DNA from: Methanomassiliicoccus sp.
Lineage (GTDB): Archaea > Thermoplasmatota > Thermoplasmata > Methanomassiliicoccales > Methanomassiliicoccaceae
Length of the DNA: 64,000 nucleotides
Direction: 5' to 3'
Assembly: GCA_033485155.1 (NCBI GenBank)
Contig: JAWQJJ010000001.1
Coordinates: forward strand, 248,001-312,000
Shown here: positions 27,707-32,275 of the stretch, in pieces
Layout of the letters: each line of letters opens with the position of its first letter
How positions within the stretch are numbered: the first letter of the stretch is position 1
The notes under the pieces: generated by a model
What the model was told of the DNA's origin: nothing
What the model saw: only the letters and a program-made list of their open reading frames with translations
Databases searched by the model: none
Position numbers and translations under genes: made by a program

Positions 27707-28441
27707 TTACTCCTCATCCTCCTCGTCCTCCGGTCCGGGGAGGGTCTGCACAGACTGCTTCTTGTTCGACCGCACGGTGCCATCCTTGATGAACACCACC
27801 CGCCCCATCATCGAGGCCACCCGATTGTCGTGGGTGACCATGATGGTGGTCATCCCGTGCTCCTGATTCAGTTTACGCAGGAGGCGGACGATTTCCATCT
27901 TGTTCTTCGAGTCCAGGTTTCCGGTTGGCTCGTCCGCCAGGAGGATCGCCGGGTCGTTGGCCAGGGCCCGGGCGATGGCCACCCGCTGCTGTTCCCCGGC
28001 GCTGAGCTTGTTCGGCCGGTGCTCGCCGCGGTCGGCCAGGCCTACCGTTGCCAGCAGCGCCTTGGCCTTATCCCGCCGTTCCTGCTTGGTCAGACCGGTC
28101 AGCTCCATGGGGAGCTCGACGTTCTCCTGGGCGTTCAGGAATGGCATTAGGTTGAAGCTCTGGAACACGAAGCCGATCTTCTTGCTCCGGATCTCCGACA
28201 ACTGCCCCTCGGATAGGTCGGTGACGTCCAGGCCGTCTATGGCCAGCCGGCCCTCGGTCGGTCGATCCAGGCATCCCAGGATGGTAAGGAGCGTAGTCTT
28301 GCCGGAACCGGAGGGGCCCTTGATGGCGATGGATTCGCCCCTCTCGACCTCGAGGTTCACCCCCCTGATCCCGATGACGTTGCGCTCTCCCATCTCGAAC
28401 ACCCTGGTCAGGCTATCGGCCTTCAGCACGTTCTCACTCAT
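27707..28441 (-). CDS. MacB/LolD-type ABC exporter ATPase
   Basis: 244 residues. Walker [10 protein letters not shown] (about residues 39-47), Q-loop [12 protein letters not shown] region, signature LSAGEQQRV (about 141-149), Walker B ILLADEP and H-loop MVTHD match the MacB/LolD group, which power transporters that work by mechanotransmission rather than by classical transport. The start ATG 28441 overlaps the permease stop by 8 bases. The C-terminus is acidic (EDEEDEE). Second gene of an operon apparently controlled by the BlaI-type repressor upstream. Confidence 0.92.
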
Positions 28442-29870
28442 TCTTAAGCGCCTCCACAGGTCTGGTTCTGGACGCCCTCCAGGCGGGATACATGCTCCCC
28501 ACCGCTCCCATGGCCACCACCAGCAGGAAGGCGATGGCCACCCACGTGAGATCCGGTTGAATGGCCAGGCTGGAGGCCTGCTGCACGCCGCGCCCCGCCT
28601 GTTCGGTCGTGGACGAGGGCAGGAGGAGGGAGGAGAGAGTGGATGAGCTGATCCATCCAATTGCCGCTCCCACCGCCCCGGCAATGGCCGCCACGATTGT
28701 CCCCTCGAGCACGAACTGGGCGATCACCGCTCTCTTGCTGAACCCCAAGGTCTTGAGGACCCCGATCTCCTTGGTCCGTTCCTTGACAGTGTACAGCATG
28801 ACGAACAGGATGATGAGCCCGGTGGCGACCACGGCGATGATCATCAGCTGGGTCGCGGTGTTCTGGGTCTGCTGCAATGTCGTCTCAGCGTTGCTCAGGG
28901 TCTTCTCGCTCATCTCTTGGAGCGCGGTGAGCTGGGCCAGCCTATCGGCCATGGTGGAGACGGTCACATCGCTGTAGGCCAGCTTGATGGCCGAGGCGAT
29001 GGTGCTCACATCATCGCTGTTCTCCGCATACACGTACAGGTAGGAGACCGATGTGCCCATTGCGTAGATCTCTTGGGCATCGGCGATGCTCATGAATACG
29101 GTGCGGTTGCCCATGGTGGAGGTGTTCTGGTAGATGCCGACCACGGTGAAGGTCTGGTTCTGGATAGTAACGGTGCCGCCCAGCTCGGTATCGTAGTAGG
29201 CGGTCAGGTTCTCGGTCAGGAGGACCGACCCGGTCTCGTTGGCATAGAGGTTCCTTCCCTCCAGGATGGTGGTGGGCAGCACGCTGTAGTTACTGATGGC
29301 GTTCTCGGTGAGGGTCACGCCCAGCACCTTGACCACGTCGGACAGCATGTTTCTCATGCTGGTCATGTCCGGCATGGTGCCGTTCATGCCTGATGGGGGA
29401 ACGCCTCCGCTCGGCATGGTGCCGTTACCGCCTCCGAAGAAGTCGTCCCTGGACGGCATGCCCTCGGTCATGCTGACGTAGGGAATGACCGACTCCACCC
29501 CGTCCAGCGCTTCTACGGTCTCCATGACCGTCTCGTTGATCTCCGAAGAGCTCCCGGAACTGGACCGCGACATCTCCCCGCCCTGCTGACTGGTCGAGCT
29601 GCCGGTGTTGCCGACCTCGATAAGGGACGATGTGTTCTCTATCTCCGCGGCCTGCGTGGCGTAATCCACTCCCATCTGATCGTTCAACTGCTCCACCGCC
29701 GACTGGCTCGCGTTCAAGCCCGCCGGTATGGACACCATGATGGCCATCGAGACGCTGATGGCCACAACAGCGAGGAGGACGCGTACCTTCCGGCGCGCGA
29801 TGTTCCTCACGGCCCTGCTGGCTATTCCCAAAGTGATGCACCTCGCAAAGGGCCTCATCGGCCCATGCAT
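28434..29870 (-). CDS. MacB/FtsX-type ABC permease
   Basis: 478 residues: one N-terminal membrane helix ([22 protein letters not shown]), a large extracellular MacB-like domain (about 50-340), and three C-terminal helices including the FtsX motif region [25 protein letters not shown]. The extracellular part has a Gly/Ser/Met-rich insert around residues 115-165 ([22 protein letters not shown]) of unusual composition. It likely forms an export or lipid/protein-extraction machine with the ATPase. Start choice: ATG 29870 has GGTGG only 2 bases away; ATG 29858 is also possible. The promoter carries a 17-bp dyad. Confidence 0.9.
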
Positions 29871-29901
29871 TCCACCAATTACTACGAGCCTATAATAATG
29901 T

Positions 29902-29918
29902 TACTATTAGAGATAGTA
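29902..29918. promoter_or_regulatory. Predicted BlaI-type operator at the ABC promoter
   Basis: TACTATTAGAGATAGTA: perfect 6-bp arms TACTAT/ATAGTA around 5 bases. It lies 32 bases upstream of the permease start, directly downstream of a leftward TATA-like box (CTATATG, near 29920-29927), where a repressor would block transcription. The same arm pattern occurs at three more sites in this locus. MecI/BlaI operators contain TACTA/TACA-type dyads, which supports BlaI as the binder. Confidence 0.65.
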
Positions 29919-30024
29919 GCATATAGAGGAGACCTCCGCCCCAAGCTGTTCGGACTGGGTGGGGGAAACAAATGGAGAGGCCGAAGGTCTCCGTTTCATC
30001 GATGGGTGCGGGCGTATAAAAATA

Positions 30025-31284
30025 TTACTTCGAGTGATAGTAACTACTATGACAAATAGTGGTATTTTGCCGGGCCCATTGGTCGAAGTGTGGACGATCG
30101 CCATGGATCAGGGGGTGATGGCCTCCCTCGTCCCACGATGCATGGTATGCCAACTCCCGGGGTCCCAGGTCCGGCAGGACCTCGGTCGGGACATGGGGAG
30201 ATAGCACGCTGTCAAGTATGTCTGCCCTGACCTCTCCCATGCTGACAACAAGGGCGATCCCTGCCAGGACAACCGCCAGGGAAAGGAGTAGGCAGGCGGT
30301 GGGACCGAGCCTTCGGCGGATGCACTCATCGCTGAACTGCCTGGTGCGGTCGGCGAGGGAGGGATGGTCGGACATCAGGGATCCCCGCTCCAGGAGCGAT
30401 AGGGTCATGCTCAGGCCGAACCGGGAAGCCAGCGACGGTCGGGAGGTGTCCCGCTCGCATATCGTAGTCACCTTTTCGATTGCCCGTATCAGCGATGCCC
30501 TCTCTCCCATGACTGATCCCGCGGTCTCGTCCGCCAGACGCTCCCGTTCCCGATGAGCGGCCCTGGCCGCCAGGTGGGCTGCGGGATGGAAGAAGAACAT
30601 CCAGGCCAGCGCTTTGGTCGACGCCTTGAACCACAGGTCGCGGTTCTTGATGTGCGCTAGCTCGTGGGCGGCTACCGCTTGGAGCTCCAGCCGATCGAGC
30701 ACGGTGAGCACGCCCAGAGAGAATACCACAGTGGCCCCCCTTCCGGTGCCGAAGGTGAAGGCATTAGGGCGGAGGTCCTCTACCAGTCCGATCCGCGGTA
30801 CGGGAACACCCAGCCGTCCTGCGATCTCCTCCACGTCCGAGGTGAGCTCGGGAAAATCCGTCCGCTGCAGGTCCACGACCTGAAGCAGTCTTCGAGTCAG
30901 ACGGGCGGAGAAAGTGAGGGAGACCGCCACGGAGAGCGCCCCAAGGATCAGGCCCACGACCCCCAATGTCCCGGTGATCGAGAGGACGCTACGCACCGCC
31001 GTCCCGGTGGCGGGGACGAACGCCACGCCCGGCGGAGCCTGTGCGTCGACCAGCTGATGGGGCAGGAACTCCATCGCTGACGGTACGGTGATCGAAGGAG
31101 GAAAGAGAAGCAGGGTCAGGAGGGCGGCGCCCATGGGCGCGACCAGGAGAACGCTCTTCCGCCCCGCTCCCCACGTTCCGTTGATCCTTATCAGTAGGAC
31201 CGAGATGACCATGACTATGGCCATCATGGCCGTGGAGTAGTAGAAGGACGGTTGCATCAGCTGCAGAACAATCTGGTCCACCAA
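30025..31284 (-). CDS. Membrane zinc metallopeptidase (BlaR1/M48-like)
   Basis: 419 residues. Two or three N-terminal membrane helices (FYYSTAMMAIVMVISVLLI, VLLVAPMGAALLTLLLF, GTLGVVGLILGALSVAVSLTF), then the zinc site HELAHIKNRD (HExxH about residue 210) with a downstream ERERLADETA that supplies the third ligand, and a further membrane helix (TACLLLSLAVVLAGIALVVSM). Encoded 15 bases after the BlaI-type repressor, the arrangement of BlaI/BlaR1 or MecI/MecR1, in which the peptidase receives a signal and inactivates the repressor. It has no penicillin-sensing domain, so the signal is different. Starts with TTG 31284 or GTG 31281. The last codons contain the tandem operator sites. Confidence 0.8.
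   Translation of the reverse strand: MVDQIVLQLMQPSFYYSTAMMAIVMVISVLLIRINGTWGAGRKSVLLVAPMGAALLTLLLFPPSITVPSAMEFLPHQLVDAQAPPGVAFVPATGTAVRSVLSITGTLGVVGLILGALSVAVSLTFSARLTRRLLQVVDLQRTDFPELTSDVEEIAGRLGVPVPRIGLVEDLRPNAFTFGTGRGATVVFSLGVLTVLDRLELQAVAAHELAHIKNRDLWFKASTKALAWMFFFHPAAHLAARAAHRERERLADETAGSVMGERASLIRAIEKVTTICERDTSRPSLASRFGLSMTLSLLERGSLMSDHPSLADRTRQFSDECIRRRLGPTACLLLSLAVVLAGIALVVSMGEVRADILDSVLSPHVPTEVLPDLGPRELAYHASWDEGGHHPLIHGDRPHFDQWARQNTTICHSSYYHSK
30026..30061. promoter_or_regulatory. Tandem predicted BlaI-type operators
   Basis: Two copies of the 6-5-6 dyad 19 bases apart: TACTTCGAGTGATAGTA (30026-30042, two mismatches in the left arm) and TACTATGACAAATAGTG (30045-30061, one mismatch in the right arm). 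Together they also contain ATAGTA-AC-TACTAT (30037-30050). They overlap the stop codon of the metallopeptidase and lie just upstream of a leftward TATA-like TTTTTATAC (30012-30020), about 160-190 bases before the ABC permease start. Confidence 0.55.
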
Positions 31285-31299
31285 CTCCAGGCAATCACC

Positions 31300-31746
31300 T
31301 CATCGCTCTTCCTCGATCCTGCCCAACTCTCTCTTCAACCGCTTGAGTCCCTCTTTATCCATCGAGACCCTCTCCACGAAGCAGTCGGTCACCTTCTCCC
31401 CGAACTTGTCGATCAGGCTGTCCAGGACCCCTTGGATGGCGGTCCGTTCGAAGGCCTCCTTCTCCAGCTTCGGCCAGTAGGCGTAGTGTAGTCCACCCTT
31501 GCCGCTCTTCACCTCACGGTCCAGCAGTCCCTTCTCGTAGAGGCGGTTCATGGTGGTCATGATGGTGGTATACGCAAGGTTGCTGTCCTTGCCCATTGAT
31601 TGGTGTACCTCTCTGACAGTGAGGGGTCGCTTGCCCGATGACCAAATGGTGTCCAGTATCTTGGACTCCAGAGGCCCCAGGAAGGAATCGGTGCTTATCC
31701 CTTCCAGGCTGTACTGGGGGAGGATGCATTTCTCCTTGGCGCACAT
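31300..31746 (-). CDS. BlaI/MecI-family transcriptional repressor
   Basis: 148 residues. The winged-helix domain PLESKILDTIWSSGKRPLTVREVHQSM...AYTTIMTTMNRLYEKGLLDREVKSG (about residues 25-85) and the helical dimerisation tail (EAFERTAIQGVLDSLIDKFGEKVTD) are clear BlaI/MecI/CopY features. The first 20 residues are extra and include two Cys (MCAKEKC), perhaps a redox or metal site. In bacteria these repressors control antibiotic-resistance genes or membrane-stress responses, with a metallopeptidase partner. Here the partner lies 15 bases downstream. A matching 17-bp dyad is only 11 bases upstream of the start, so autoregulation is expected. Confidence 0.88.
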   Translation of the reverse strand: MCAKEKCILPQYSLEGISTDSFLGPLESKILDTIWSSGKRPLTVREVHQSMGKDSNLAYTTIMTTMNRLYEKGLLDREVKSGKGGLHYAYWPKLEKEAFERTAIQGVLDSLIDKFGEKVTDCFVERVSMDKEGLKRLKRELGRIEEER

Positions 31747-31756
31747 CTTGTTCAGC

Positions 31757-31773
31757 TATTATATTGCGTAGTA
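31757..31773. promoter_or_regulatory. Predicted BlaI-type operator at its own promoter
   Basis: TATTATATTGCGTAGTA: the same 6-5-6 dyad with one change in each arm (TATTAT/GTAGTA), and with one more matching pair outside (C...G at 31756/31774). It ends 11 bases before the repressor start, overlapping the likely transcription start. Binding here would shut off the repressor and peptidase genes together. Confidence 0.5.
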
Positions 31774-31795
31774 GCTATTGAATGTTGCGCATCTA

Positions 31796-32275
31796 CTAGC
31801 GATCGAGGACCGTTTGTTCGTTGATCTCACGAAGGACCCTGAGGGCCTCGGAGATGTGCTTCCGGGGCTGCATCTGGGACGAAAAAACCATCCGGATGAT
31901 GCCCTGCTTGTCGATCAGGTAAGTGACCCGGCCGGGCGTTCTAGCAGCCCCCCACGCCCCATACATATCCCTTACTTTGTCCTCGGGATCGCTGAGCAGG
32001 GTGAAGGGCAGATCATGCTCCTCGGCGAACTTCTTATGCGACTCCACCGGGTCCGCGGAGATCCCGATGACCTCCGCTCCGTTCTTCAGGAACTGCTCGT
32101 GCATCTCTCGGAACTCATGGGCTTCCATGGTGCAGCCGGCGGTGAAGTCCTTGGGATAGAAGTACACCACCAGGGCCTTCCTGCCGATCAGTGCTCCGAC
32201 GTCGATTTCCTTTCCGTTCTGGTCCCGGAGGGTGAACACCGGGGCGGCGGTCCCGACCTTAAGGTTCTTCGACAT
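31796..32275 (-). CDS. Peroxiredoxin (Bcp/PrxQ type) with a single cysteine
   Basis: 159 residues. The thioredoxin-fold core and the active-site segment FYPKDFTAGCTMEAHEFREM (peroxidatic Cys about residue 48, with the Thr and Arg of the catalytic set) are present. The resolving Cys usually found five residues later in PrxQ is His here, and there is no other Cys in the protein, so it must work as a 1-Cys enzyme that depends on an external thiol. Reduces H2O2 and organic peroxides. Not in the BlaI operon: it ends 22 bases beyond the BlaI operator on the same strand. Confidence 0.9.
   Translation of the reverse strand: MSKNLKVGTAAPVFTLRDQNGKEIDVGALIGRKALVVYFYPKDFTAGCTMEAHEFREMHEQFLKNGAEVIGISADPVESHKKFAEEHDLPFTLLSDPEDKVRDMYGAWGAARTPGRVTYLIDKQGIIRMVFSSQMQPRKHISEALRVLREINEQTVLDR

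Follow-up and report, generated by a model that had tools for sequence, protein, structure and literature searches.

A BlaI-family repressor gene, a membrane metallopeptidase gene and the genes of an ABC exporter in Methanomassiliicoccus sp. were found to be tied together by copies of a 17-bp dyad. We consider it likely that they form a self-contained inducible switch, in which BlaI would act as the repressor, the peptidase would relieve repression once it senses an extracytoplasmic signal that is not a beta-lactam, and the exporter would be the output. The window, the whole 64,000-nucleotide stretch of DNA analysed from this genome (G000), carries the genes on its minus strand in the order blaI, membrane metallopeptidase, permease and ABC ATPase (Table 1). 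To our knowledge, the ways in which archaea detect extracytoplasmic disturbances have been little described. The circuit is compact and testable, with operators predicted to the base, and it recurs in uncultured archaeal lineages and in methanogens whose order has gut species among its members.

Table 1. Genes and candidate regulatory elements of the blaI cluster, in positions of the window.
Feature	Position	Strand	Basis or placement
ABC exporter ATPase, LolD/MacB/DevA-like	27707-28441	-	Pfam ABC_tran 118.8 bits; LolD model 230.9 bits, under cut-off
MacB/FtsX-type ABC exporter permease	28434-29870	-	Pfam FtsX 68.6 bits, MacB_PCD 38.4 bits
TATA-like element, proximal exporter promoter	29891-29899	-	about 25 bp from permease ATG
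Candidate operator, proximal exporter promoter, TACTATTAGAGATAGTA, perfect dyad	29902-29918		directly upstream of TATA-like element
TATA-like element, distal exporter promoter	30015-30025	-	sequence
Membrane metallopeptidase, M48/M56 gluzincin	30025-31284	-	HExxH at 207, ExxxD at 248, four predicted TM segments
Candidate operator, second of pair, TACTTCGAGTGATAGTA	30026-30042		directly upstream of distal TATA-like element
Candidate operator, first of pair, TACTATGACAAATAGTG	30045-30061		over last codons of peptidase gene
blaI, BlaI-family winged-helix repressor, 148 aa	31300-31746	-	Pfam PF03965 77.3 bits; archaeal clade member, 100/100 support
Candidate operator, blaI promoter, TATTATATTGCGTAGTA	31757-31773		between TATA-like element and start codon, 10 bp before ATG
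TATA-like element of blaI promoter, TTCAATAG on minus strand	31775-31782	-	sequence

The gene calls of the initial annotation were matched by Pfam, with Penicillinase_R in the repressor, M48/M56 in the peptidase, MacB_PCD and FtsX in the permease, and ABC_tran in the ATPase. The winged-helix domain of BlaI (PF03965) spans residues 23-141 and scored 77.3 bits against a cut-off of 22.6. CopY copper repressors possess a C-terminal CxCxxxxCxC metal site; this site was absent from the window BlaI translation, and the CopY equivalog TIGR02698 reached 36.3 bits against a cut-off of 121.95. It was noted that the archaeal BlaI clade has a conserved N-terminal extension (QYNIEG...FLGPLE) outside the MecI match (A2; L051-L064, L077-L080), which resembles that of WS1/Zipacnadia and Chloroflexi relatives. 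The closest solved structure to the window BlaI by sequence was 2g9w (52.5 bits), which we take to be M. tuberculosis BlaI Rv1846c and which, unlike the archaeal clade, is without this extension. The exporter had been called MacB-like, and this stands for domain content only: MacB_PCD and FtsX are both present in the permease, placing it in the MacB/FtsX-type ABC transporter superfamily (Pfam), but the scores lie well under the MacB and LolCE cut-offs. The permease reached 41.8 bits against 966 for the MacB equivalog PRK10535 and 70.3 against 362.45 for the LolC/E equivalog, and the ATPase reached 230.9 against 307.75 for that of LolD. The ATPase and permease are also separate proteins, unlike the fusion described by PRK10535.

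We then characterized the peptidase, which matched PF05569 (M56) at 40.5 bits (cut-off 31) and scored higher with M48. Its H207 and E248 are spaced by 41 residues, equal to H201 and E242 of BlaR1. Hydropathy gave the order TM1-TM2-TM3, catalytic domain and TM4, and the protein ends approximately 70 residues past this last segment. The AlphaFold2 model was moderate in quality (mean pLDDT 65, with values under 50 in the loop 64-101 and the tail 361-419), with M48 peptidases, ZMPSTE24 and BlaR1 as the best fold matches. As had been claimed from the letters alone, the domain search of the peptidase returned M48/M56 only and no penicillin-binding sensor domain. Archaea are without murein. Because the peptidase has no sensor domain, the cue may be the state of the membrane or of a partner protein rather than a beta-lactam. 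Its short extracytoplasmic loop and its tail were not conserved among relatives. Metal sensing by the tail, which holds eight His residues in the window protein, was considered and rejected on account of this lack of conservation.

Dyads with at most two mismatches were encountered five times in the 64 kb, compared to 0.21 expected from dinucleotide shuffles, and none of 100 shuffles reached five. Four of the five fall inside the blaI-peptidase-exporter cluster. The four dyads listed in the initial annotation were recovered at 29902, 30026, 30045 and 31757, and the tabulation of 33 archaeal sites gave TACTA-N7-TAGTA as a better core. Their proposed placement at promoters was also borne out, as the exporter, the second site and blaI each have an archaeal TATA-like element directly next to the dyad. 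There appeared to be two arrangements: the dyad lies between the TATA-like element and the start codon at blaI, HtrA and surface-protein genes (7-24 bp before the start codon in most), and directly upstream of the TATA box at the Methanomassiliicoccus exporter. Both positions would hinder the recruitment of TFB or polymerase. The spacing between the proximal TATA-like element and the ATG of the permease points to a leaderless transcript. In both the window species and G002, the exporter is also preceded by a distal promoter, again a dyad with a TATA-like element, which overlaps or adjoins the peptidase gene at its end.

Conservation of the dyad in relatives, on which the initial annotation had staked its proposal, was observed in the genus, the order, a second archaeal phylum and bacteria. 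Among the close relatives of the window genome, both in the genus Methanomassiliicoccus, G002 has retained the complete cluster, including dyads at blaI, the peptidase end and the permease. In G006, the exporter is lost and was not found elsewhere in that genome, but blaI, the peptidase and the promoter with dyad and TATA box remain. In the window as in G002, exactly 31 bp separate the proximal exporter dyad from the permease ATG, and one perfect dyad of G002 occupies the place equivalent to 30045-30061. In G006 (L037 6145-6314), the dyad and TATA box of the exporter survive inside the 3' end of the peptidase gene, a natural deletion. Of the cluster, G003 of the same genus keeps only blaI and its dyad, with no long peptidase or exporter found elsewhere in the genome; the pairing of blaI with the peptidase and exporter is therefore not obligatory. 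At the blaI promoter, the dyad was found at the matching position, 10-11 bp before the ATG, in G002, G003 and G006, with the equivalent TATA-like element (CTATATAG or TTCAATAG) at the same place. It was also noted that a Bcp-type peroxiredoxin gene (31796-32275, minus strand) lies directly upstream of blaI in the window. Such a gene stands beside blaI in all four blaI-bearing Methanomassiliicoccus genomes (G000, G002, G003 and G006), and no match adjoining blaI was found in G040 or G054.

These latter two genomes belong to another family of the order. G040 carries the whole cluster and G054 the blaI-peptidase pair, each with perfect dyads. Across 61 genomes of the order, 16 perfect TACTA-N7-TAGTA sites were found in the six genomes with a clade BlaI and 14 in the other 55 (Mann-Whitney; p ~2e-6), and the long peptidase was confined to genomes with a clade BlaI among the 15 searched. 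G010, of the same family as the window genome and without a clade BlaI, possesses four perfect sites (C38, C83, C107). Additional perfect dyads were encountered in both. That of G040 (L128 3122-3138) precedes a gene for a small zinc-ribbon protein, with a TATA-like element next to the dyad on the side of this gene, and that of G054 (L130 2368-2384) directly adjoins what appears to be the start (MSNAVVALGGNAI...) of a carbamate-kinase-like protein; the latter may be chance or a further target.

Beyond the order, a Brockarchaeota contig and 15 further genomes of this second phylum were found to carry a BlaI of the same clade (100/100 support). Wherever the examined stretch was long enough to show it, this BlaI adjoins the same kind of peptidase. 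The divergent neighbours in most cases were NEW3-domain proteins with ABC-2 exporters, or a MacB/FtsX-type exporter. The 16 stretches contained 29 perfect dyads compared to 0.31 expected from base composition. Six genomes of Brockarchaeota and their kin place a dyad 7-8 bp before the ATG of a gene for a membrane-anchored trypsin/PDZ (HtrA-type) protease. G726 combines the exporter type of the window with HtrA: two dyads, one on either side of a TATA box, precede a row of permease, ATPase and HtrA genes that is divergent from blaI-peptidase. Over the clade in the two phyla, 21 of 22 blaI genes have an upstream dyad with at most one mismatch (0.3 expected) and 14 of 22 a perfect one (0.01 expected), so that the trait of a BlaI-family repressor having the dyad at its own promoter was present by comparison (21/22). 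More distant archaeal BlaI-family genes had no perfect upstream dyad in 29 cases and one with a single mismatch. By sequence, the candidate operators were thus shown to track the archaeal BlaI clade and to mark exporter, HtrA and blaI promoters.

Bacterial relatives of this BlaI carried a perfect dyad upstream of blaI in 20 of 39 cases (0.005 expected), with none in Nitriliruptorales, Melainabacteria-like and several other bacterial relatives. Loci of Myxococcota, Deltaproteobacteria and one further bacterial group carry another perfect dyad where the M56 peptidase gene ends or just past that point, giving the order operator-blaI-peptidase-operator-exporter. In the three bacterial loci examined, the downstream genes encode RND efflux parts (an outer-membrane efflux protein, a CusB/HlyD adaptor and an ACR_tran pump). 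Judged from gene order and motif, these loci are the architecture of the window with a different exporter. In Myxococcota and relatives (L056-L073), the core dyad upstream of blaI was mostly TACTATTGACNNTAGTA, overlapping a TTGAC -35-like hexamer.

We also searched for regulon members outside the cluster. In the window genome (G000 C5:45593), a dyad lies 18 bp before a gene for an fn3/transglutaminase-like membrane protein, and the G002 orthologue (54% identity) has a dyad in the same context, TTTAATAGCTACTAT. In G054, a dyad lies 17 bp before the ATG of a secreted beta-helix protein gene. A further perfect dyad of the window genome (G000 C2:486835) was rejected as a target, with no convincing gene or promoter adjoining, and is probably due to chance.

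The initial annotation had expected a TACA/TACTA-type BlaI operator. The 17-bp geometry is that of C. thermocellum BlaI_0696, which recognises GTCTAT-N5-ATAGAC by DAP-seq (PMC8457756), and for this reason binding of the dyads by the archaeal BlaI is strongly implied; the TACTA-N7-TAGTA operators of the window are, however, not classical TACA-N2-TGTA-type sites. Because the classical operator, such as OP1 of B. licheniformis (TTACATATGTAA; PMC3305447), differs, the dyads appear to represent a distinct operator class within the BlaI family. In the proposed switch, a BlaI dimer would bind the dyads. At the blaI promoter it would sit past the TATA box and ahead of the start codon, and at the exporter promoter it would cover the expected TFB-recognition element, immediately before the TATA box. 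Bound at these positions, BlaI would thereby repress its own operon (blaI-peptidase) and the exporter, along with at least one unlinked gene, that for the transglutaminase-like membrane protein. The metallopeptidase would sense an extracytoplasmic disturbance and cut BlaI in its C-terminal region, or trigger that cut, and the exporter would thus be derepressed. BlaR1 of S. aureus cleaves BlaI directly (PMC9834060). The Asn-Phe scissile bond of S. aureus MecI/BlaI aligns to Cys-Phe in the window BlaI and varies among archaeal relatives. We infer both BlaI repression and peptidase-dependent BlaI cleavage. The complete sensing and response system of the earlier description is likewise presumed.

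The short motif and AT-rich half sites raise the thought of chance dyads in AT-rich intergenic DNA, which the dinucleotide shuffles and the conservation at similar spacing in many genomes refute, leaving this a negligible prospect. It also appears very unlikely that another regulator recognises the dyads with the BlaI homologue as a bystander. The four perfect dyads of G010 would suit such a regulator, but the dyad follows the BlaI clade over two archaeal phyla and bacterial relatives with differing other neighbours, and BlaI_0696 shows the same 17-bp geometry by DAP-seq. The role of the peptidase could likewise be different if it were a quality-control protease similar to HtpX and left BlaI untouched, with a ligand or dilution relieving repression. 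Its M48 score is above its M56 score, HtpX is a close solved relative, and a peptidoglycan fragment proposed as BlaI coactivator in B. licheniformis (PMC3305447) counts for relief by a ligand. However, the HtpX (M48B) NCBIfam equivalogs stay far under cut-off (best 85.5 against 355 bits), the zinc-motif spacing equals that of BlaR1, and the gene lies directly behind blaI and only in genomes with a clade BlaI in the sets searched; we consider this explanation improbable.

An intriguing question is what the cue would be. The same repressor-peptidase switch could respond to a specific toxic compound (a drug, antimicrobial peptide, bile-type amphiphile or metal) that is pumped out by the exporter, a reading that we find possible rather than probable. 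All full clusters have an exporter as the partner, and drug and peptide exporters are among the members of the FtsX/MacB class. The RND tripartite pumps with CusB/HlyD-type partners in the bacterial loci examined also fit toxic-compound or metal sensing. Yet the archaeal regulons, or the genes next to them, also comprise HtrA-PDZ proteases and secreted repeat, beta-propeller or transglutaminase-like proteins, none of which is a component of a pump, and the peptidase loop and tail vary among relatives. Because related archaeal regulons hold HtrA-type PDZ serine proteases and secreted proteins, we speculate that the cue is envelope or secretion stress; no HtrA was found in the window genome, so this reading rests on relatives. 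We tentatively suggest, with close to even confidence, that a BlaI-type repressor relieved by proteolysis serves archaea as an envelope-stress system, in which one 17-bp operator links sensor protease, HtrA, exporter and surface proteins, and that the operator module is cross-domain, with one exporter family swapped for another between archaea (ABC) and bacteria (RND). Since the same dyad recurs at matching systems in distant archaea and bacteria, the switch for exporters and, in some archaea, for a protease for secreted proteins is probably widespread.

No prior report of an archaeal BlaI-peptidase-exporter system was found in the literature searched, whose coverage leaves out many journals, and no earlier published account of the bacterial BlaI-M56-RND loci was found there. 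The bacterial loci (among L056-L073, mostly Myxococcota and Deltaproteobacteria) share gene and operator order and an identical core dyad with the window, and differ in having an RND tripartite pump as exporter and a TTGAC -35-like hexamer overlapping the dyad. The shared operator links them with the archaeal loci, which suggests that the exporter switch may be the more general case and beta-lactam sensing one specialised application of it. Cpx, sigma-E and CssRS are bacterial envelope-stress regulons in which HtrA/DegP is induced; similar to these, the output in related archaea comprises an extracytoplasmic HtrA protease and membrane proteins, but here a repressor and metallopeptidase stand in place of a two-component system or ECF sigma factor. 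The C. thermocellum BlaI_0696 regulon (PMC8457756) likewise has a 17-bp dyad, whose CTAT and ATAG halves are 5 bp apart, and its promoters carry two dyads each, with partners of the BlaR1 type; unlike the window, its outer bases are GT/AC rather than TA/TA, it is bacterial, and its output gene is hypothetical. In the staphylococcal and Bacillus bla and mec systems (BlaI/MecI with BlaR1/MecR1), a Penicillinase_R winged-helix repressor also adjoins a membrane gluzincin (HExxH...E, 41-residue spacing) and the system is self-regulated with several operators. The archaeal loci differ from these in the missing penicillin-binding sensor domain, in the TACTA-N7-TAGTA rather than TTACATATGTAA-type operator, in their archaeal promoters, and in an output of exporter and surface proteins.
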